Positions 29,323 through 38,962 of a stretch of 64,000 nucleotides of DNA are shown in pieces. The DNA lies in the NCBI GenBank assembly GCA_016195805.1, contig JACPYT010000005.1:62001-126000 (forward strand), given 5' to 3'. The position numbers were made by a program, and so were the translations under genes. The DNA is from Hydrogenophilales bacterium (GTDB lineage: Bacteria > Pseudomonadota > Gammaproteobacteria > Burkholderiales > Thiobacillaceae). The notes under the pieces were generated by a model that saw nothing but the letters and a program-made list of their open reading frames with translations, ran no database searches and was not told where the DNA came from. Each line of letters starts with the position of its first letter. Within the stretch, counting starts at the first letter, position 1.

Positions 29323-30990
29323 CTATAGGCCAGTGCGCGGATGACTCATGCGTCGATAATAATTGATCAGCGCATTGGTCGAGGCATCATGGCCACCCAC
29401 CGGCGCGTCGGCATGCAGTTCGGGCAGGATGCGACTGGCGAGCTGCTTGCCGAGTTCCACCCCCCACTGGTCGTAGGAATTGAGATTCCAGATCACGCCC
29501 TCCACGAAGATCTTGTGCTCGTACAGCGCGATCAGCATGCCGAGTGCGTGCGGAGTCAGTTTCTGCAGCAGGATTGCGTTGCTGGGGTGGTTGCCGTCGA
29601 ACACCTTGTGCGAGACGAACTGTCCGGTCTGCGCCTGCGTCTCCTCGCGCGTGCGGCCGCGCATCAGCGCCTCGGTCTGCGCCAGGAAATTGGCGATGAG
29701 AATGTCGTGGTGCGCCTGCAGATTGGTGTGCGGCTCGACCGACACGATGAAATCGGCCGGGATGATCTTGGTGCCCTGGTGGAGCAGCTGATAGAACGCA
29801 TGCTGGCCGTTGATGCCGGTGGCGCCCCAGACGATCGCGCCGGTAGGATAGTCGACCACGTTGCCGTCGCGGTCGACCGACTTGCCGTTCGATTCCATGT
29901 CGGCCTGCTCCAGGTAGGCCGGCAGGCTCCTGAGGTAGTGGTCGTAGGGCAGGATCGCATGCGACTCGGCGCCGAAGAAGTTGTTGTACCAGACGCCCAG
30001 CAGCGCCAGGATCACCGGCATGTTGCGGTCGAGCGGCGCATGGCGGAAATGCTCGTCCATCGCGTGCGCGCCTTCCAGCAGCTCGACGAAGCGTTCCGCG
30101 CCGACCGCCAGCACGATCGACAGCCCGATCGCCGACCACAGCGAATAGCGGCCGCCCACCCAGTCCCAGAATTCGAACATGTTGGCGGGGTCGATGCCGA
30201 ATGCGGCGACCGCCTCGCGATTGGTCGATACCGCCACGAAATGTCTGGCGATGTGCTTTTCCGCCTGCGACTGCGCCAGGAACCACGCGCGCGCATAGTG
30301 CGCGTTGGTCATCGTCTCCTGCGTGGTGAAGGTCTTCGACGACACGATGAACAGCGTCGTCTCGGGATTCAGCGACTCCAGCGTTTCCTTCACGTGCGCG
30401 CCGTCGATGTTGGAGATGAAATGCACCTTCAGGCGCGGATGGCGGTACGGCTTCAGTGCCTGCACCACCATCTGTGGGCCGAGGTCGGAGCCGCCGATGC
30501 CGATGTTGACGATATCGGTGATGCGCTCGCCGGTATAGCCGCGCCACTCGCCGCTCCTTACACGCTCGGCGAACGCGCCCATGCGCTCGATCACCGCGTT
30601 CACCTTGGGCATGACGTCCTCGCCGTCGACCCGCACCGGATGGTTGCTGCGATTGCGCAGGGCCACGTGCAGCACGGCGCGGTTTTCGGTGTTGTTGATC
30701 TTGTCGCCGCCGAACATGCGTTCGCGCCAGCCGGCCACGTCCGCCTCTTCGGCCAGCCGCACCAGCAGGCTCATGGTCTCGTCGGTGATGCGGTTCTTCG
30801 AATAATCCAGCAACAGCTCGCCCACCTGCAGCGAAAACCGTTCGAAGCGCGCCGGATCGGCCGCAAACAGGTCGCGCATGTGCACTGCCGCCATCACGGC
30901 ATGATGCGCCCTCAACTGGCGGCATACCGGGCGATGCAAGGGCCCGGGCATCCCGTCCTGTTTTTCTTTCGCGAAAACCGACGAAACCAT
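29323..30990 (-). CDS. pgi: Glucose-6-phosphate isomerase
   Basis: 555 aa. Interconverts fructose-6-phosphate and glucose-6-phosphate, linking gluconeogenesis from fixed CO2 to glycogen. Landmarks: [29 protein letters not shown], the catalytic Glu in [18 protein letters not shown], and the C-terminal [11 protein letters not shown] signature. Start at ATG 30990 with AGGGGG about 10 nt upstream; the frame extends to 31062, but into the sigma-54 promoter. First gene of the eight-gene operon. Confidence 0.97.
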
Positions 30991-31061
30991 GCTGTGTTTC
31001 CCCCTACCGGATCGTGTCGCGCCACCTGGCTGCGACCCTGGGTGCCGATTGATCGTCATCA

Positions 31062-31078
31062 AGCAACGGCTGTGCCAC
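31062..31078 (-). promoter_or_regulatory. Sigma-54 (-24/-12) promoter of the pgi-glg operon
   Basis: Minus strand reads GTGGCACAGCCGTTGCT. It matches the TGGCAC-N5-TTGCW consensus without a mismatch in the two conserved blocks, with the GG and GC pairs 10 nt apart. The predicted start point near 31051 gives a leader of about 60 nt before the pgi ATG. RpoN and its activator are not in the window. Confidence 0.75.
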
Positions 31079-31205
31079 CGACGAAAAAAAGCGTCATGAC
31101 TTGATTAACCATAGGAAAAATTGGTGATGGGCAGATGACACGCCCAAACGCCGCCCCCAACATGCGCCAAAAAATCCCGGTACCGCCATACACAGGGACG
31201 GTCAT

Positions 31206-31220
31206 GCACCTAAAAGGTGC
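31206..31220. promoter_or_regulatory. Perfect dyad, candidate regulator site
   Basis: GCACCT-AAA-AGGTGC, six-base perfect arms, centred about 45 nt upstream of the plus-strand -24 element. Could be a protein-binding site; there is no T-run, so a terminator is unlikely. Confidence 0.4.
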
Positions 31221-31254
31221 CCTGTATCGTGCCGTTATTAAAGATAGCCCTGAA

Positions 31255-31271
31255 TTGGTATGCTCCTTGCT
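31255..31271 (+). promoter_or_regulatory. Sigma-54 (-24/-12) promoter of the exopolysaccharide operon
   Basis: TTGGTATGCTCCTTGCT. It agrees with the extended consensus TTGGCACG-N4-TTGCW at all fixed positions except two C-to-T changes in the -24 block; GG/GC spacing is exact. Predicted transcript start near 31283, about 135 nt before the first ATG. Confidence 0.7.
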
Positions 31272-31417
31272 GCCATCTGGACAGGCACGGCAAGAACGGT
31301 CCAGTTTCCCGAAACGACAAAACAACTCATTGTTTTTACGGGGACTTAAATTTCGACTCCAAACCCGCCTGTTCATCGTTCGGCAGGGGCTGGCGAAAAC
31401 TCGGAGAGGTGCACGAT

Positions 31418-32401
31418 ATGCATGTTTTGATCACGGGCGGCGCAGGATTCATCGGATCGCATCTGGCGGAATACCATCTGGCGCTGGGCGACCAGGTCTA
31501 CGTGGTGGACAACCTGAGCACCGGTTCCCTGGCGAACATCGATCCCTTCCGCGGCGATCCCGCCTTCCGCTTTGCCGAGGCGGATATTCTTCACTGGAAC
31601 GGCCTCGACAAGGCCATCGCCTGGGCCGACCGCATCTACCACATGGCCGCGGTCGTCGGCGTGAAGAAAGTGCTGGAAGACCCGGTGGCCGTGATGGCGA
31701 CCAACATGACCGGCACCGAGCGCATCCTGCGCGCCATCCACCACGGCGGCTGGAATCCGCAGGTCATCATCGCCTCGACCTCGGAGGTCTACGGTTTCAA
31801 CACCAAGAGCAGCTTCGCCGAGACCGACTACATCGTGCTGCCGTCAGCCGGCCGCCTGCGCTGGGCCTATGCCGTAACCAAGCTGGCGGACGAGTTCCTC
31901 GCCTTTTCCTATGCGCGCAAATACGGCCTCAATATCGTGGTGGCGCGCCTGTTCAACACCATCGGACCGAATCAGGTGGGCCACTACGGCATGGTGGTGC
32001 CCAGCTTCGTCAGACAGGCGGTCAACAATGAGCCGCTCACCGTCTATGGCGAAGGCAACCAGACGCGTTCCTTCTGCGATGTGCGCGACACCGTGGTGGC
32101 GCTGGACCATCTCGCCGGCTGCCCGGAGGCCTGGGGCGAGGTGGTGAACGTCGGCAACGACCAGGAAATCTCCATTCGCGATCTGGCCGACCTGATCGTG
32201 CAGAGCGCCCACAGCGCCTCGCCGCTGCACTTCATGTCCTACAAGGATGCCTACGGCGAGGAATTCGAGGACGTCACCCATCGGCGCCCGGTACTCAACA
32301 AGCTGCGCGCCCTGACCGGATTCGCACCGCAATGGACGCTCACTGAAACGCTGAGCGACCTGATCGCGAGGGAATGCGCAAAAAAGCTGCGTGTCGCCTA
32401 G
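31418..32401 (+). CDS. NAD-dependent nucleotide-sugar epimerase/dehydratase
   Basis: 327 aa, extended short-chain dehydrogenase. Rossmann motif ITGGAGFIGSHLAEYH at the N-terminus, NAD-site DNLSTGS, active-site Ser/Thr in ASTSEVYGF and the Tyr-x3-Lys pair in YAVTKLADEF. The segment LFNTIGPNQVGHYGMVVPSFVRQA is typical of UDP-sugar 4-epimerase-like members; a UDP-sugar 4-epimerase is likely but dehydratase or decarboxylase activity is not excluded. ATG 31418 has GGAGAGG (31402-31408) 9 nt upstream; a longer frame to 31217 has no ribosome site. First gene of the exopolysaccharide-type operon. Confidence 0.88.
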   Translation: MHVLITGGAGFIGSHLAEYHLALGDQVYVVDNLSTGSLANIDPFRGDPAFRFAEADILHWNGLDKAIAWADRIYHMAAVVGVKKVLEDPVAVMATNMTGTERILRAIHHGGWNPQVIIASTSEVYGFNTKSSFAETDYIVLPSAGRLRWAYAVTKLADEFLAFSYARKYGLNIVVARLFNTIGPNQVGHYGMVVPSFVRQAVNNEPLTVYGEGNQTRSFCDVRDTVVALDHLAGCPEAWGEVVNVGNDQEISIRDLADLIVQSAHSASPLHFMSYKDAYGEEFEDVTHRRPVLNKLRALTGFAPQWTLTETLSDLIARECAKKLRVA

Positions 32402-32415
32402 AATAGGTTACAACC

Positions 32416-33807
32416 ATGGCGACTACCCCCTACTTCCTCCTCAGCCCGAATACGCTGCTGAGCCTCCTCGGTCTGGCCCACGGGCCGGACAAGACCTTTC
32501 CCAATCCGGCGCAAGATTGGCGCAAAGCCACCGTCGATGTGGTGATCCCCGCCTTCAACGAGGAAAGCAACATCCCGCTGTGCCTGGCCGCGCTGGCGCG
32601 CCAGACCCGCAAGCCCACGCGCATCATCCTGATCGACGACGGCAGCCGGGACCGCACGGTCGAATACGCGCGCACCTTCTGCGACCTGAACGGCATCGAC
32701 CTGATCACGATCCAGCGCGCGCATTCGATCGGCAAGACGCCGACCCTCAAGCGCCAGTCGCGCGAATTCGACTCCGACGTCGAATTCATCCTCGACGGCG
32801 ACACGGTGCTGGAATCGGACAATTACATCGACCGCGTGGTCGAGGAGCTCTACAAAGGCGCCGGCATCGCCAGCGCCTGCGGTACCGTACTGCCGCTACG
32901 CGACCGTGACCGCCGCGCCATGCTTGAGACCGATGTGCTGAAGAAATTCCTCGGTGCCCACCCGGAAGCCTCGATCTACCCCAAGGTCGGCTGGTTCCAT
33001 CACCTGCAGCGCGGCATCACCGACATGTACCGGGACGTGCTGTATTACTTCCTGCAGAAATTCGTATACCTGGGGCAGATGTCCTTCTTCGGCGGCATCC
33101 TCAATCCGGTGGGCTGCGCCGTCGCGTATCGCAGGGATGTGCTGAAAACCATCGTGTTCGACCGCTACGAACCGCTCCTCGGCGACGATCTCACCAACTC
33201 GGAGGACATCTTCATCGGCTTCGCCATGAACGACAACGGCTACCGCAACATCCAGCTCACCGACGTCTACGCCCGCTCGCAAGAGCCTGAAGTCGGTCGC
33301 GTGCCGGGGCAGATCTACTTGTGGTCGTCGTCCTTCCTGCAAAGCTGCTACTACTTCGATGAACTGATGCGCAGCCCCTTCAAGTCGCTCAAGCGCTATC
33401 GGCGCAAGAAGAAGGAAGCTGCCGAACTGGCGGCCGGCCTCGCCGACAAGCGCGTGCATCATGAACAGTACCGCCAGCCTTTCGGTATGGACTACACGCT
33501 CAAATACGGACGCCCGATCGGCTGGGTCCTGTTCATGTCGGCGTTCGAAAAAGTGGCATTTCCAACCGTCCTGCTGATCATGATCCTGCTGCGGCTGTGG
33601 GAACCGCTGGCGATCACGCTCGCAGCCGAAACGACGGTCGCCACCGGCCTGCTGGTCACCGTCGCGAAGGGACATCGGCTGGAATATCTGCTCAAAGGCT
33701 TGCTGGTGGCGCCGTTGCGTTATGCCGTGCTGCTGTTCGACCTCATCACGATCGGCCGCTTCGCCGCCGATCTGTGGATCTTCCGTAACCGGCGGTGGCG
33801 CAAATGA
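32416..33807 (+). CDS. Membrane-bound family 2 glycosyltransferase (polysaccharide synthase-like)
   Basis: 463 aa. GT-A catalytic domain about 40-330: VVIPAFNEESN, IDDGSRDRTV (Asp74-Asp75), LDGDTVLE (DxD) and LLGDDLTNSEDIFIGFAM (catalytic Asp region). Three hydrophobic segments near the C-terminus (about 375-450) anchor it in the inner membrane. The position where processive synthases have QxxRW reads GQIYLWSSS, with Gln and Trp kept but Arg replaced by Leu. Likely polymerises or transfers sugars for an exported polysaccharide. Its stop overlaps the TPR gene start (ATGA). Polymer identity unknown. Confidence 0.87.
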   Translation: MATTPYFLLSPNTLLSLLGLAHGPDKTFPNPAQDWRKATVDVVIPAFNEESNIPLCLAALARQTRKPTRIILIDDGSRDRTVEYARTFCDLNGIDLITIQRAHSIGKTPTLKRQSREFDSDVEFILDGDTVLESDNYIDRVVEELYKGAGIASACGTVLPLRDRDRRAMLETDVLKKFLGAHPEASIYPKVGWFHHLQRGITDMYRDVLYYFLQKFVYLGQMSFFGGILNPVGCAVAYRRDVLKTIVFDRYEPLLGDDLTNSEDIFIGFAMNDNGYRNIQLTDVYARSQEPEVGRVPGQIYLWSSSFLQSCYYFDELMRSPFKSLKRYRRKKKEAAELAAGLADKRVHHEQYRQPFGMDYTLKYGRPIGWVLFMSAFEKVAFPTVLLIMILLRLWEPLAITLAAETTVATGLLVTVAKGHRLEYLLKGLLVAPLRYAVLLFDLITIGRFAADLWIFRNRRWRK

Positions 33808-36125
33808 AGCTGCATTCCCTCATTGCACTGGCTATTCTCACGGCGGCAGCGTTGCCTGCTGCCGCGCAATCCGTGCCCGATGCCGGCTTGCGCGCCGAAA
33901 CGCAGGGTCAGTGGGCCGAAGCGGTCGACATCTACCAGCGGGCGCTGGCGGCCAATCCGGCGCAGGCGAATCTGTGGGAACGCATCGCCGACATACGCGC
34001 CACGCAACTGAAAAACCCGGAAGGCGCCGCCGATGCTTTGCGTGAGGCAGTGAAATACGCACCCATGGACGCCCGCCTGCATTACAAGCTTTCCCAGGCG
34101 TATGCAGCCATCAAGAAAGGCCCGGGTGCGCTGGCCGCCATCGCGCGCGCAGTCGAACTCGAACCGAACAATCTGACGTATTTGCGCGCCCGCGGCGAAG
34201 TGGCCACCTGGACCGGCTACTACGCCGTGGCGATCGACAGCTTCGAGCGCGTCCTCGCGGCTTCGCCCCAGGATGCCGACGCCCTGCTCGGCCTCGCCCG
34301 TGCCTATTCGCACAGCGGCAAGAAGGACGCCGCGGCCGCCCGCTACCGCGCCTACCTGGAACAGCGCCCGCAGGACAAGGACGCGATGCTCGAAGCCATG
34401 GAACTGGAAGCCGAGCGCGGCAACTTCCAGGCGATGCGGGAATACGATGCCCTGTATCGCCAGCGCTTCGGCACCAGCAAGGAATACTGGCTGCGCATGG
34501 CCGACCTCTACGCGCTGGGCAATCAGCCCGAGGCTTCGTCGGCAGCCCTCAAGGAAGCCACCCGCCTCGCCCCGCAGGACGCGGCACTGTTCTATCGGCT
34601 GGCACAGAGTTATTCCACCGACAAGGAAGCCGGCGATGCGTCAGACGCCATCGAGCACGCGGTGGCACTCGACCCGAAGAATCTGGAATACCTGCGCAGC
34701 CGCGCCGACATCGCTGCCTGGCGCAGCGACTACGACACGGCGCTGGACAGCTACCGACGCATACTCGCGATTGCGCCGGACGACCCCGGCGCACGCCTCG
34801 GCATCGCCCGCGTGCAGTACTGGCGCAGCCAGCTGGACGCGTCGGCGCGGGCCTATCGTGACTATCTGGCCCGGCAGCCCGGCGTGGCGGCCGCGTGGAT
34901 GGAATACATCGTCGTCGTCACCGAGCTGGGCGACTACGCGCGTGCGATGGAACTGCTGGAAGACTACAAGAAGCGCTTCGGCGACACGGTCGTCTACCGC
35001 AAGCAGAAGGCGCGCGTGCTGGCGTGGGCCGAGCGGCCGACGCCGTCGCTCGGCCTCGTCGACGAACTCGCGCCGGACCTGCGCGACGATTACGAACTGG
35101 GCTACACCCGCACCATCGCCCTGCATTACGCGCATCGCCCGCGCGAGGCGCTGGCGAATCTCGCCGACGTCGCCCGCCTGCGCCTGGACAGCAAGGAAAC
35201 CGCCGACCTGACCCGCTTCATTTACACGCCTCTGCGGTCCAATGCCACCTTCGATCTCGGCTACGAGACGGCCTCCGACAACATCACCCTCCGCCATGCC
35301 GGCCTGCGCGGCGAATACGTGATCAATCCCGAGACGCGCCTGTTCGGCGGCAGCGACCGGCAGGCGATCCGCACGAAAACCGGCAGCGTCTACGCCAAAC
35401 CGGACGGCGGCACCTCCATCGGCTACAACCGCGCCTGGCTGGGCATCCAGCATCGCACCTCCCCCAGGCTGTCGCTCGACGCGCAAATCGGCGGCGGCAC
35501 TGCCGAAGGCAATAGCACCTTCATCTACGAAGTGGGCGCCGACATCCAGCCCAGGGATGAACTTGCCCTGCGCCTGTCGCGCCGGCAGGATCTGTTCGCC
35601 GTGTCGCCGCGCGCCGCCAAGCTCGGCATCGAACGCCGTGCCAACACCCTCGACGCGACCTGGACCCCCGACCTGCGCTACACCGTCGTCAGCCGCCTCG
35701 CCTATGACACCTTCTCCGACGGCAACGAACGCTGGGAAGCCGAGCTCGCGCCGCGCCGCGCCATCCTGCGCACACAGCGCCTGAACCTGGACCTCGGCGT
35801 GAGCGGCCGCTGGTTCGGCTTCGACAACGATCCCGGCAACGGCTACTACGCCCCCTCCCGCTACGAGCGCTACGCGCTGACCGCCTTCACCTACTGGAAG
35901 ATCAGCGACGACGACGGCGTGAGCGTGGCCTTCAGCTACGGTCCCTACAAGGACAACACCCTGTCCGGCTACCGCAGCGGCGGCGACATCGCAGCGGAAG
36001 GCTTCTTCGGCCTGTACCGCGACTGGTACCTCGACGTGAAGGCCGGATTTTCCAGCTATGGCGGCGGCTCCACGGCCGGATACCGATCGCACCTGTTCGA
36101 AATCAGCCTGACGCGCCGCTTTTGA
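33804..36125 (+). CDS. TPR-rich outer-membrane beta-barrel protein (PgaA/BcsC/PelB-like exporter)
   Basis: 773 aa. Signal peptide (MKLHSLIALAILTAAALPAAA). About residues 25-440 form a long superhelix of TPR units (repeated patterns such as ALAANPAQANLWERIADI, ALEPNN-Y-RARGEVA, ALDPKNLEYLRSRADIA, each with A-x3-Y/W spacing). About 460-773 is rich in alternating hydrophobic strands and ends in Arg-Arg-Phe, a typical Omp85-sorted C-terminal Phe. This layout is that of polysaccharide-export porins with a periplasmic TPR scaffold. ATG 33804 overlaps the GT2 stop; GTG 33795 is an unneeded alternative. YaiO-type barrels are an alternative comparison. Confidence 0.85.
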   Translation: MKLHSLIALAILTAAALPAAAQSVPDAGLRAETQGQWAEAVDIYQRALAANPAQANLWERIADIRATQLKNPEGAADALREAVKYAPMDARLHYKLSQAYAAIKKGPGALAAIARAVELEPNNLTYLRARGEVATWTGYYAVAIDSFERVLAASPQDADALLGLARAYSHSGKKDAAAARYRAYLEQRPQDKDAMLEAMELEAERGNFQAMREYDALYRQRFGTSKEYWLRMADLYALGNQPEASSAALKEATRLAPQDAALFYRLAQSYSTDKEAGDASDAIEHAVALDPKNLEYLRSRADIAAWRSDYDTALDSYRRILAIAPDDPGARLGIARVQYWRSQLDASARAYRDYLARQPGVAAAWMEYIVVVTELGDYARAMELLEDYKKRFGDTVVYRKQKARVLAWAERPTPSLGLVDELAPDLRDDYELGYTRTIALHYAHRPREALANLADVARLRLDSKETADLTRFIYTPLRSNATFDLGYETASDNITLRHAGLRGEYVINPETRLFGGSDRQAIRTKTGSVYAKPDGGTSIGYNRAWLGIQHRTSPRLSLDAQIGGGTAEGNSTFIYEVGADIQPRDELALRLSRRQDLFAVSPRAAKLGIERRANTLDATWTPDLRYTVVSRLAYDTFSDGNERWEAELAPRRAILRTQRLNLDLGVSGRWFGFDNDPGNGYYAPSRYERYALTAFTYWKISDDDGVSVAFSYGPYKDNTLSGYRSGGDIAAEGFFGLYRDWYLDVKAGFSSYGGGSTAGYRSHLFEISLTRRF

Positions 36126-36156
36126 ACGGCCACGCCCGGCGAGTTGATGGGGCAAC

Positions 36157-37113
36157 ATGACACGCCGGCTCCTGCTTCTCCTCTTCCTCCTCCCCTTCAC
36201 CGCCGCCGCGGCCGCCCCGCCGCCCCCGGCGCGCGCAGTGGCGATCACCTTCGACGACCTGCCGTTTGCAGCAGTGCCAACGGAAGACGACGCGCAGCTT
36301 GAAGCCATGACCGCCCGGTTGCTGCGCAGCCTGCAGGCCGAGCGGGTGCCCGCGGTCGGCTTCGTCAACGAAGCGAATCTGACTCGCGACGACACACTCG
36401 ATCCGCTCCGGGTCGGCCTGCTGCGCAGCTGGATCCGGGCCGGCTTCGAACTCGGCAACCATACCTACTCGCATCTTTCGCTCAACCGAACCTCGCTCGA
36501 CGCCTTCGAAGCCGACCTGCTGCGGGGCGAAACCGTCACGCGCCCGCTCATGCAGAGCGCAGGCAAACCCCTGCGCTGGTTCCGCCATCCGTTCCTGCAT
36601 CAGGGCGCAAGCCCGGAAGTGCGTACAGCCTTCCAGGATTTTCTGGCCGCCCACGGCTATGCCGTGGCGCCGGTGACCGTGAACAGTGCGGAATGGGTGT
36701 TCGCCGCCGCCTATGCCCGGGCGCAGGCGCAGAGAGACGCCGACGCGGCACACCGCATCGGCGACGCCTACGTACCCTACATGCAGGCGGTGTTCGCGCA
36801 GGCCGAGCAACTGGCGCTCGATCTATTCGGCCGCCCCATCTCCCACGTCCTGGTGCTGCACGCCAACGCGCTCAACGCGGATTATTTCGACGCGCTCGCC
36901 GCCATGCTCAAACAACGCGGCTATCGCTTCATTTCACTGGATGACGCGCTCACGGACAGCGCCTACGCGTCGCCTGCGGCATGGAACGGCGTCGAGGGCG
37001 AATCCTGGCTCGAAGGCTGGGCCCGCCAGGCCGGACTGCGACCGCCCCTGGCGCCGCCGGTTCCCGGCTTCGTCAGGCAGTGGGCCGGGGCCGCCGCGCT
37101 GCGCGGCTACTGA
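36157..37113 (+). CDS. Secreted polysaccharide deacetylase (NodB homology)
   Basis: 318 aa. Signal peptide MTRRLLLLLFLLPFTAAAA. NodB motifs: TFDDLP (Asp33, Asp34, motif 1), HTYSH (His102, His106, metal ligands, motif 2) and RHPFLH (Arg143, motif 3). Predicted metal-dependent removal of N- or O-acetyl groups from a polysaccharide in the periplasm, as PgaB or the PelA deacetylase domain does. It is 31 nt after the TPR-porin gene and 1 nt before the GH10-like gene. The C-terminal half lacks a hydrolase domain, which is supplied by the next gene. Confidence 0.88.
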   Translation: MTRRLLLLLFLLPFTAAAAAPPPPARAVAITFDDLPFAAVPTEDDAQLEAMTARLLRSLQAERVPAVGFVNEANLTRDDTLDPLRVGLLRSWIRAGFELGNHTYSHLSLNRTSLDAFEADLLRGETVTRPLMQSAGKPLRWFRHPFLHQGASPEVRTAFQDFLAAHGYAVAPVTVNSAEWVFAAAYARAQAQRDADAAHRIGDAYVPYMQAVFAQAEQLALDLFGRPISHVLVLHANALNADYFDALAAMLKQRGYRFISLDDALTDSAYASPAAWNGVEGESWLEGWARQAGLRPPLAPPVPGFVRQWAGAAALRGY

Positions 37114-37114
37114 C

Positions 37115-38170
37115 ATGCGACCGTGCACCCTCGCAACCGCAGCCCTGTTTGCGGCCGCACTCGCCACCGCCCTGCCTGCAGGAGCAGTCGACAGCTTGCG
37201 CAACCTGGCGCAATCGGCCGGCATCCGTTTCGGCACCGCCGTCAACGTCGAGGCCCTGAACACCGATGCGGCCTATGCGCGGCTGCTGGCGCGCGAATTC
37301 AACCTCGTCACCCCCGAAAACGCGCTGAAATTCTCCGTCGTGCAGCCCGAACGCGGGCGCTTCGATTTCACGCAGGCGGATGCCCTGGTCGCATTCGCCG
37401 AAGCGCATCGCATGCAGGTGAACGGCCACGTTCTGGTGTGGGACCAGCAACTGCCGGACTGGCTGACGCAAGGCCACTTCAGCCCGGACGAACTCAAGGC
37501 CATCCTGCACGAACACATTCGGACACTGGTCACCCGCTATCGCGGACGCGTGGCATCGTGGGACGTGGCGGCCGAGGCGGTGGGGGAAGATGGCAAGCCG
37601 CGCGAGACCTTCTGGTCGCGCGGCATCGGCCCGGATTATCTGGCGCTGGCCTTCCGCTGGGCGCACGAGGCCGACCCGCGGGCGCGCCTGCGCTACAACG
37701 ACTACGGCGGCGAGGGTGCCGGCGCCAAGTCCGACGGTATCTACACGCTGGTGGCCGACCTGCGCGTGCATCGCGTACCGATCGATGCCGTCGGCCTGCA
37801 GATGCACGTCGGCCTGAACGACGCGCCCCGTCCCGAGGACGTGCGCCTCAACATGAAACGTCTGGCCGCGCTCGGGCTGGAGACCGACGTCACCGAAATG
37901 GACGTCATGCTTCAGCTGCCGGCGGACCGCGCCGACCTCAAGGCACAGGCCGGGCTGTACCGCGCCATGCTGCAAGCCTGCCTGGCGGTGCCGCTGTGCC
38001 GCAGCTTCTCCACCTGGGGCGCGACCGACCACTACTCGTGGATTCCGGAATTCTTTCCCGGCCGCGGCGCGGCCCTGCTGTTCGATATGGATGGCCACCC
38101 CAAGCCGGCGTACTACAGCGTCCGGCGTCTGCTCCGCCGCGCCGCTGAATCGTCCCCGGCTATCGAATAG
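37115..38170 (+). CDS. Secreted GH10-like glycoside hydrolase with altered active site
   Basis: 351 aa. Signal peptide ending about ALPAGA. GH10 (endo-beta-1,4-xylanase) fold landmarks: LVTPENALKF, GHVLVWDQQLP, YNDYG-EG--AKSDGIY, GLQMHV and the late W in STWGATDHYSW. Acid/base Glu154 and nucleophile Glu261 (VTEMDV) are kept. Two near-invariant substrate contacts are changed: the Asn before the acid/base is Ala153 (WDVAAEA instead of WDVxNEA), and the His of LVWH is Asp110. Both contact the -1 sugar in the family, so a substrate other than xylan is likely. No carbohydrate-binding module. Confidence 0.85.
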   Translation: MRPCTLATAALFAAALATALPAGAVDSLRNLAQSAGIRFGTAVNVEALNTDAAYARLLAREFNLVTPENALKFSVVQPERGRFDFTQADALVAFAEAHRMQVNGHVLVWDQQLPDWLTQGHFSPDELKAILHEHIRTLVTRYRGRVASWDVAAEAVGEDGKPRETFWSRGIGPDYLALAFRWAHEADPRARLRYNDYGGEGAGAKSDGIYTLVADLRVHRVPIDAVGLQMHVGLNDAPRPEDVRLNMKRLAALGLETDVTEMDVMLQLPADRADLKAQAGLYRAMLQACLAVPLCRSFSTWGATDHYSWIPEFFPGRGAALLFDMDGHPKPAYYSVRRLLRRAAESSPAIE

Positions 38171-38174
38171 CCGG
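38156..38174 (+). terminator. Hairpin over the stop codon of the GH10-like gene
   Basis: CCGGCTAT-CGA-ATAGCCGG, perfect 8-nt arms including the stop codon TAG. No T-run follows, so it may protect or pause the transcript rather than terminate by itself. It separates the operon from the convergent slipin gene. Confidence 0.35.
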
Positions 38175-38200
38175 ACCGCCGGGCTCCTTCTCCAAAGCCG

Positions 38201-38962
38201 TCATTCCCCCTGTTTCTGCTTTTCCAGAAAATGCGACACCAGATCCATCGGCAGCGGGAAAATAATGGTGGTGTTCTTGTCAGCGCCGATCACTGTCAGG
38301 GTTTCCAGATAGCGTAACTGGATCGCCTGCGGCTCTTTCGCCAGGATCGCGGCGGCCTGGAACAGCTTCTCGGCGGCCTGCAATTCGCCCTCGGCGTGGA
38401 TCACCTTGGCACGGCGCTCGCGTTCCGCCTCGGCCTGACGGGCGATGGCCCGGATCATCGATTCGGTCAGATCGATCTGTTTGATCTCGACGTTGGAGAC
38501 TTTGATGCCCCAGGAGCTGGTCTGTGCGTCCAGCGCTTGCTGGACATCGGTGTTGAGCTTTTCGCGCTCGGCCAGCATGTCGTCCAGCTGGTGCTTCCCG
38601 AGCACCGAGCGCAACGTGGTCTGCGCGAGCTGGCTTGTTGCATTGAGGTAATTTTCGACTTCGATGACCGAATGTTTCGCATCGGTGATACGGAAATAAA
38701 TCACCGCACTCACCTTCACCGACACGTTATCGCGCGAGATAACGTCCTGCGTCGGCACTTCGAGAACGACGGTGCGCAGGTCGACACGCACCACTTTCTG
38801 GATCGCGGGGATGATCAACACCAGGCCCGGCCCCGACACCTTCTGGAACCGCCCCAGAAAAAACACCACACCGCGCTCGTATTCGCGGAAGATCCAGATT
38901 GCGGAAGCCAGGAACATCACGGCCACCACCAATAACAGAATGCTGCCGAGTTCAAGAAGCAC
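38201..38962 (-). CDS. Slipin (SPFH/band 7, stomatin-like membrane protein)
   Basis: 253 aa. N-terminal transmembrane helix (LLLVVAVMFLASAIWIF) followed by the band-7 domain: REYERGVVFFLGRF, GPGLVLIIPAIQKVVRVDLRT, the ATSQLAQTTLRSVLGKHQLDDMLAER core and a helical C-terminus. Such proteins scaffold membrane microdomains and often pair with an NfeD protease partner, absent here. Start is GTG 38962 with GAGGAG 7 nt upstream; the frame runs on to 39121, but that would cross the tRNA-Leu gene. Confidence 0.92.
   Translation of the reverse strand: MLLELGSILLLVVAVMFLASAIWIFREYERGVVFFLGRFQKVSGPGLVLIIPAIQKVVRVDLRTVVLEVPTQDVISRDNVSVKVSAVIYFRITDAKHSVIEVENYLNATSQLAQTTLRSVLGKHQLDDMLAEREKLNTDVQQALDAQTSSWGIKVSNVEIKQIDLTESMIRAIARQAEAERERRAKVIHAEGELQAAEKLFQAAAILAKEPQAIQLRYLETLTVIGADKNTTIIFPLPMDLVSHFLEKQKQGE

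Follow-up and report, generated by a model that had tools for sequence, protein, structure and literature searches.

The locus studied here raises the question of which polymer a bacterium builds and exports with five closely packed genes, whose products read as a nucleotide-sugar enzyme, a glycosyltransferase, an outer-membrane protein, a deacetylase and a hydrolase. It lies at positions 31418-38170, on the plus strand, of a 64-kb window of contig JACPYT010000005.1 from a Hydrogenophilales bacterium (assembly GCA_016195805.1), a Thiobacillus-like sulfur oxidizer, and all coordinates below are those of the whole window. An earlier sequence-only reading took the first gene for an epimerase and the five together for an undescribed export system. 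We find it very likely that the locus encodes a synthase-dependent polysaccharide export machine, in which the first gene, of the short-chain dehydrogenase/reductase (SDR) family, probably encodes a decarboxylase, the label of epimerase then being wrong. The best explanation of the whole combines an export operon, UDP-N-acetylxylosamine (UDP-XylNAc) as precursor, and processing by a carbohydrate esterase family 4 (CE4) and a glycoside hydrolase family 10 (GH10) enzyme; it is plausible, if somewhat short of probable. That N-acetylxylosamine (XylNAc) is the main sugar of the polymer is by itself a tentative proposal.

Gene content and conservation of the locus

The open reading frame (ORF) coordinates, the Pfam domains and the linkage in relatives bear out five real, collinear genes on one strand. 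They are tightly spaced, separated in order by 14 bp, a 4-bp ATGA overlap at 33804-33807, 31 bp and 1 bp. The deacetylase and the hydrolase are encoded by separate genes, as claimed before, each a distinct ORF with its own domain. By eye, the N-termini of the exporter, CE4 and GH10 are each signal-peptide-like. The exporter combines tetratricopeptide repeats (TPRs) with a β-barrel, and the synthase belongs to glycosyltransferase family 2 (GT2). The features are as follows.

31418..32401, + strand: SDR nucleotide-sugar enzyme, 327 aa (PF01370, 1.7e-48; family profile best against human UXS1; own clade beside the UDP-xylose synthases, UXS, in the tree)
31778..31786, + strand: codons of the Thr-Ser-Glu (T-S-E) triad of the SDR, residues 121-123
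32416..33807, + strand: GT2 polysaccharide synthase of 463 aa that ends in hydrophobic helices and has QxY(L/M/F)W where QxxRW is expected (PF00535, 8.1e-20; model; Foldseek)
33804..36125, + strand: outer-membrane exporter, 773 aa, with signal peptide, TPR superhelix and 16-strand β-barrel, as predicted (AlphaFold2, Foldseek, NCBIfam)
34191..34700, + strand: five TPRs of the exporter, 170 residues in all (130-299; self-identity at offset 170; missing in some relatives)
35241..36119, + strand: predicted 16-strand barrel, exporter residues 480-772 (strand list of the model)
36157..37113, + strand: secreted CE4/NodB polysaccharide deacetylase, 318 aa (PF01522, 1.5e-15; motifs)
37115..38170, + strand: secreted GH10 hydrolase, 351 aa (PF00331, 3.6e-98; alignment to the xylanase 1vbr)
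37559..37576, + strand: WDVAAE in GH10, with Ala where Asn is expected before the acid/base Glu (motif count across operon copies)

A GT2 scan of 84,980 species genomes, which detects close relatives only, yielded 53 loci, 52 of them members, with L056 (27% over a short stretch) as the exception; like L056, L002 and L003 match the GT2 weakly and were excluded as non-members. The members come from Thiobacillus and its kin, Sulfuriferula, Extensimonas, Lysobacter, Luteimonas, Arenimonas, Rhodanobacter, Gemmatimonadetes and single others, some of which may carry wrong metagenome-bin titles. At E 1e-60, with few candidates scored per genome, an even phylum sample gave the GT2 in one of 398 genomes, the window's own, and it is found in 21/56 genomes of the source genus. 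The SDR adjoins the GT2 in 51/52 loci (L032 has no SDR, and that of L030 is cut by the contig end), and the exporter is present in 50/52, the contigs of L029 and L055 stopping before its position; the neighborhood search proposed earlier thus returned more than chance linkage. Where 2.5 kb or more of downstream sequence is present (44 loci), CE4 occurs in 22 and GH10 in 19, the latter always together with CE4, and one locus (L022) has CE4 with no GH10 found. Since the first three genes are near-constant and the last two occur in about half of the loci, the conserved system consists of three core genes (SDR, GT2 and exporter) and two accessory ones (CE4 and GH10), so that the idea of five genes as one system stands for the core. 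Searches of plasmids gave partial weak matches only for the GT2 (five records) and the exporter (three records), and 79 records for GH10, xylanases at up to 48%.

Synthase, exporter and processing enzymes

The GT2 model, based on a 20-sequence alignment, has a mean pLDDT of 74.6 and comprises a synthase domain and, C-terminal to it, long helices (residues 367-391, 395-416 and 421-455), whose membrane insertion was judged by eye. Foldseek placed PcManGT first (2.8e-9), followed by the Chlorella virus hyaluronan synthase CvHAS (7.6e-9) and BcsA (1.7e-8), with TM-scores by query length of 0.44-0.54; the resemblance to hyaluronan and cellulose synthases is therefore at the fold level only. The family keeps both the DxD and the ED motif. 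Processive GT2 enzymes are marked by the motif QxxRW, in place of which 52 of the 53 GT2 rows read Q-x-x-(L/M/F)-W, the remaining row being gapped, and none has the Arg. Of the NCBIfam models, PgaC_IcaA gives 44.6 bits against a cut-off of 422.3, and NodC also matches weakly. In Lysobacter psychrotolerans, the operon is directly preceded by another GT2 of this family, a partial one (404 bits; L037:6422-7528).

AlphaFold2 predicted the exporter with a mean pLDDT of 91.0, helices between residues 26 and 477 and, between 480 and 772, 16 strands, which together would make a periplasmic TPR superhelix on an outer-membrane barrel, in line with the architecture first read from the sequence. The first two Foldseek matches are BcsC (9b8a, 5.2e-16, TMq 0.36), the only TPR-plus-barrel protein among the best 50 matches. 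Pfam assigns TPR families (best 3.5e-27) and leaves PgaA_barrel below its cut-off (1.2e-4, 21.7 of 27 bits), and the PgaA model TIGR03939 (PGA_TPR_OMP) scores 106 bits, its cut-off being 366.65.

Compared with itself, the exporter shows 42% identity at an offset of exactly 170 over 130 residues from about residue 68, equal to five TPRs of 34 residues. Four relatives (L011, L021, L024 and L025), whose exporters show 67-72% identity where they align, have exactly 170 residues missing at or near this block, and their loci are also without CE4 and GH10. In a table of 42 rows, which includes the window and leaves out L051 (truncated exporter) as well as L053 and L054 (GT2 split over frames), 20 rows have both duplication and CE4, 19 neither, two CE4 alone (L035 and L052) and one the duplication alone (L028). 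The duplication is found in all 19 GH10 rows and in two rows without GH10. Two sequences are imperfect, the exporter of L026 containing N and that of L011 also being without its last residues. The raw two-by-two table is no significance test, and an independent-pair test of block against CE4 had just four pairs on starred branches (sign test p 0.5). Passages of PMC9384988 state that the N-terminal TPR region of PgaA is required for hydrolase stimulation, and passages of PMC12022489 describe contacts of modifying enzymes with porin TPRs as a common feature of such systems. Because the block co-occurs with CE4 and GH10, and in view of this literature, we infer that it helps dock both enzymes. 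A block that varies naturally with a deacetylase and a hydrolase could serve as a genetic test of the idea, raised for PgaA and PelB, that TPR modules serve for docking and are gained along with new processing enzymes.

Across 23 CE4 rows the motifs TFDD (TCDD in one), HTxxH, R-x-P and LHAN are kept; the comparison with solved structures, at a best E of 2.6e-4, gave no clue to the substrate. Residues 27-345 of the GH10 protein align with the xylanase 1vbr (E 4.2e-86), and both the acid/base and the nucleophile Glu are preserved. The hydrolase had been described as coming from a family other than those of Pga and Pel, which holds, the family being GH10, and its active site departs further: in 18 readable operon copies the residue before the acid/base is Ala in 17, Ser in one (L027) and Asn in none. 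These are from 19 rows examined, L008 being unreadable (N) there and L020 being left out; L008, L016 and L020 each have a fragmented or truncated gene. Within the genus, 15 of 16 GH10 copies are readable and all have Ala, a set that overlaps with the operon copies. Five of the seven non-operon GH10 matches in the class are readable, all with Asn, two of these five (L076 and L083) being from one genome; L080 and L081 yield no motif. In clan GH-A this Asn contacts the 2-OH of the subsite -1 sugar, and a 2-acetamido or 2-amino group in its place would explain the loss of the residue. A search at E 1e-30 finds a single GH10 in the source genome, and carriers number 7/274 in the class, source included; at E 1e-20 GH10 occurs in 16/56 genomes of the genus, all within the 21 that carry the GT2. 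In L099 (G715:C50) the GH10 reading frame is interrupted by one TGA and its motif is unreadable; the gene may be decaying, or the assembly may be at fault.

The nucleotide-sugar branch and the candidate polymer

The triad of the SDR reads T/S-S-E in 50/50 aligned family rows, with YxxxK kept. In addition, R289 is invariant in 14/14 rows and aligns with the Arg of RxP in UXS1, a position that we infer to be that of ArnA R619. The T-S-E triad together with an Arg aligned with UXS1 characterizes UDP-uronate decarboxylases of the UXS/ArnA group. Most decarboxylases carry the TSE triad and a conserved Arg, according to an excerpt of PMC10338323, and a part of PMC7984243 reports that the epimerase Ser is replaced by Glu in decarboxylases. 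Against solved structures the SDR family profile gives 208.7 bits for UXS1, 191.5 for 8vr2, 158.8 for 6wjb, 152.4 for ArnA, 149.1 for 6zl6 and 148.0 for 6bwl (Pal). We take 6wjb to be PelX and 6zl6 a UDP-GlcA 4-epimerase. The likeness to the UDP-sugar epimerase of Pel that had been pointed out survives insofar as an SDR is linked to the system; the parallel is weak because of the decarboxylase triad and the profile best matched by UXS1 (208.7 against 158.8 bits for 6wjb).

In a tree of 23 proteins, the 14 operon SDRs and three plasmid SDRs form one clade (97/95), apart from the four annotated UXS (99/96), and the SDR thus falls outside the UXS clade. L070 is the only further SDR of the source genome in this tree, its TviC-like SDR being left out, and the root is unsure because the two outer rows are long branches. 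A Legionella SDR nests within the operon group on a long branch.

A motif scan of called genes located a nucleotide-sugar dehydrogenase in or beside four of the 52 operon loci, namely upstream of the SDR (L031), between SDR and GT2 (L043), after GH10 (L027) and after the exporter (L038). Such a gene also neighbors each of the three top-ranking SDR relatives from plasmids, and none is listed within 3.5 kb at the four annotated UXS loci and a Halobaculum relative, which served as controls with an incomplete gene table. For all seven dehydrogenases the models of the UDP-HexNAc type give higher scores than those of the UDP-glucose type, whereas the UDP-glucose dehydrogenase of the source genome scores the opposite way (TuaD, 506 vs 191 bits). 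On another contig of that genome (L065, C12), a TviB-like dehydrogenase (474 bits of 592) is followed by an SDR with an S-S-S triad, which by eye looks WbpP/TviC-like, and this pair is likely the supply of UDP-N-acetylglucosaminuronate (UDP-GlcNAcA)/UDP-GalNAcA outside the window. HexNAc-type dehydrogenases and a decarboxylase triad together suggest that the SDR acts on UDP-GlcNAcA and yields UDP-XylNAc, making it a candidate UDP-GlcNAcA decarboxylase (UDP-XylNAc synthase). Such a route is known from Bacillus cereus NVH 391-98, where UXNAcS and a UDP-GlcNAc 6-dehydrogenase produce UDP-XylNAc, as given in a section of PMC5078965.

On this basis, the TviB-like dehydrogenase, unlinked in this genome, would supply UDP-GlcNAcA, which the SDR would decarboxylate to UDP-XylNAc. 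The membrane GT2 would polymerize the sugar and thread the chain across the inner membrane, from where the TPR superhelix would lead it to the outer-membrane barrel while docking CE4 and GH10. CE4 may strip some N-acetyl groups from the chain, and GH10 may cleave it, setting its length or releasing the polymer. In its fullest form, the proposal is that the operon exports a partly de-N-acetylated poly-N-acetylxylosamine ("aminoxylan"), cleaved by an enzyme of xylanase fold adapted to a 2-amino sugar, and that other operons draw on the UDP-XylNAc branch as well, one of them with a YaiO-type barrel and a HEAT-repeat scaffold; this we hold to be possible but doubtful.

On a plasmid of Legionella adelaidensis (L075:5768-11238), a dehydrogenase, an SDR of the same clade, a YaiO-family barrel, a HEAT-repeat protein and a glycosyltransferase stand in a row, which suggests an export operon for this sugar that was put together independently. 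Other SDR relatives lie beside an MraY/WecA-type transferase, assigned by eye at L106:3433-6346 and annotated at L073:6983-9078, and with such neighbors the product of the SDR may also enter lipid-linked glycans.

Several observations weigh against the UDP-XylNAc proposal. The single SDR sequence of the window matches 8vr2, of unstated function, first (156.6 bits) and UXS1 second (147.8). Its best NCBIfam model is LegB, at 141 bits against a cut-off of 475, which is also best for two plasmid relatives; next to LegB, the dTDP-glucose dehydratase model scores highest, far below its cut-off, and the TSE triad alone would not exclude a 4,6-dehydratase. No dehydrogenase was found in the available flanks, some of them short, of 48/52 operon loci, that of L027 and L038 does not adjoin the SDR, and 0/7 reach the cut-off of a substrate-specific model. 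The choice of substrate by phylogenetic profile over the genus was abandoned, as nearly all genomes carry the TviB-like dehydrogenase (53/56) and nearly all the UDP-glucose dehydrogenase (51/56), and the profile does not pick between them. With the Arg of QxxRW missing, processivity of the GT2 is not assured, and the association of the TPR block with CE4 is based on few independent events.

Four other explanations were considered. The SDR could be a C4-epimerase of UDP-GlcNAcA, the polymer then being a partly deacetylated polyuronate, e.g. of GalNAcA (Vi-like), exported in the manner of Pga. The Vi precursor is made by TviB and TviC, and TviB-like dehydrogenases are in or beside the operon in L027, L031 and L043; however, the T/S-S-E triad is not that of an epimerase, the profile favors UXS, the TviC model reaches 100 bits against a cut-off of 760, and the genome already has the separate S-S-S SDR beside its TviB-like dehydrogenase, so a polyuronate is unlikely. 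An ordinary UDP-xylose synthase, feeding an O-acetylated bacterial xylan with CE4 as acetylxylan esterase and GH10 as xylanase, would agree with UXS1 as the best solved relative of the profile, with the xylanases and acetylxylan esterases contained in both families, and with the UDP-glucose dehydrogenase of the genome. This seems quite unlikely, as the operon SDRs fall outside the clade of the four annotated UXS, 7/7 dehydrogenases are of the HexNAc type, GH10 has lost the Asn by which xylanases hold the 2-OH, and no acetyltransferase is among the five genes.

A common HexNAc chain of GlcNAc or GalNAc, with the SDR as a PelX-like UDP-HexNAc 4-epimerase, draws on the match of the profile to 6wjb and on the weak PgaC and NodC matches of the GT2; UXS1 scores 50 bits above 6wjb, the TSE triad argues otherwise, and the dehydrogenase linkage in some relatives would be pointless, making such a chain improbable. 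Lastly, the genes might not belong to one pathway, GH10 and CE4 serving plant-polymer degradation beside an unrelated glycosyltransferase. The absence of CE4 from 22/44 and of GH10 from 25/44 loci with enough downstream sequence would fit, but 16/16 genus genomes with a GH10 match also carry the GT2, both enzymes co-occur with the TPR duplication, the spacing is 1 bp and 31 bp, and Thiobacillus is lithoautotrophic; we regard this explanation as highly improbable and rejected a role in xylan degradation.

Relation to known systems and genomic surroundings

The secretion line is Pga/Pel-like, ordinary in principle and unusual in parts; this general reading is strong, and the identity of the sugar is a specific proposal that the data suggest. 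The functional parallel to Pga drawn before is confirmed by families and predicted folds. Like PgaABCD, which exports poly-N-acetylglucosamine (PNAG), the operon combines a GT2 synthase, a TPR-plus-16-strand porin that matches PgaA models, and a periplasmic deacetylase and hydrolase; unlike it, it has a dedicated linked SDR and separate CE4 and GH10 proteins in place of a PgaB-type fusion. Membership in Pga was rejected on the PgaC_IcaA and PGA_TPR_OMP scores given above and on the lack of a two-domain PgaB. The Pel system (PelA-PelG, PelX) shares a TPR exporter, a deacetylase and hydrolase and, in some genomes, a linked SDR, but the operon synthase is a membrane GT2 and not PelF-type, its hydrolase is GH10 and not GH166, and its SDR is decarboxylase-like. 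With Bcs (BcsA/BcsC/BcsZ) the operon has the GT2 and exporter folds and a separate hydrolase gene in common, whereas it adds an SDR and a deacetylase and has GH10 instead of GH8. NfrA/NfrB of the E. coli NGR glycan likewise pair a GT2 with a TPR/barrel outer-membrane protein; membership was rejected, no NfrA family being among 25 of the 26 Pfam matches listed. The UXNAcS pathway of B. cereus NVH 391-98 corresponds by its description to the proposed UDP-XylNAc route, and we know of no polymer system for it.

Divergent PgaB clades that lack the hydrolase domain are described in a survey of synthase-dependent operons (PMC7112194), and the portion of it available contains no match for the SDR-GT2-exporter-CE4-GH10 arrangement. 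No description of the operon or of a XylNAc polymer was found in one open-access library, which agrees with the earlier view of an undescribed system and is weak evidence of absence, subscription papers being mostly outside the scope and the searches partly aimed elsewhere. To our knowledge, poly-N-acetylxylosamine is not a previously known polymer class. The locus would add a synthase-dependent matrix polysaccharide system to those of cellulose, PNAG, Pel and alginate, one with an unusual sugar if the SDR is a decarboxylase, and it hints at the possible biofilm composition of sulfur-oxidizing Thiobacillus; biofilm polymers of a new kind would be at hand if the chain consists of N-acetylxylosamine, a five-carbon amino sugar.

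A scan of 30900-38400 gave no Rfam match at the gathering score, and hence no known riboswitch there. The promoter scan (none found, 1.2 expected) and the terminator scan (three found, 5.3 expected) were uninformative. Opposite-strand ORFs, known as ORFs and not as genes from the ORF list, overlap the five genes. By eye, one flank resembles pgi, glk, glgC and a GH57-type gene, and the other resembles an SPFH gene, its domain assigned by Pfam, together with queA, tgt and secDF.

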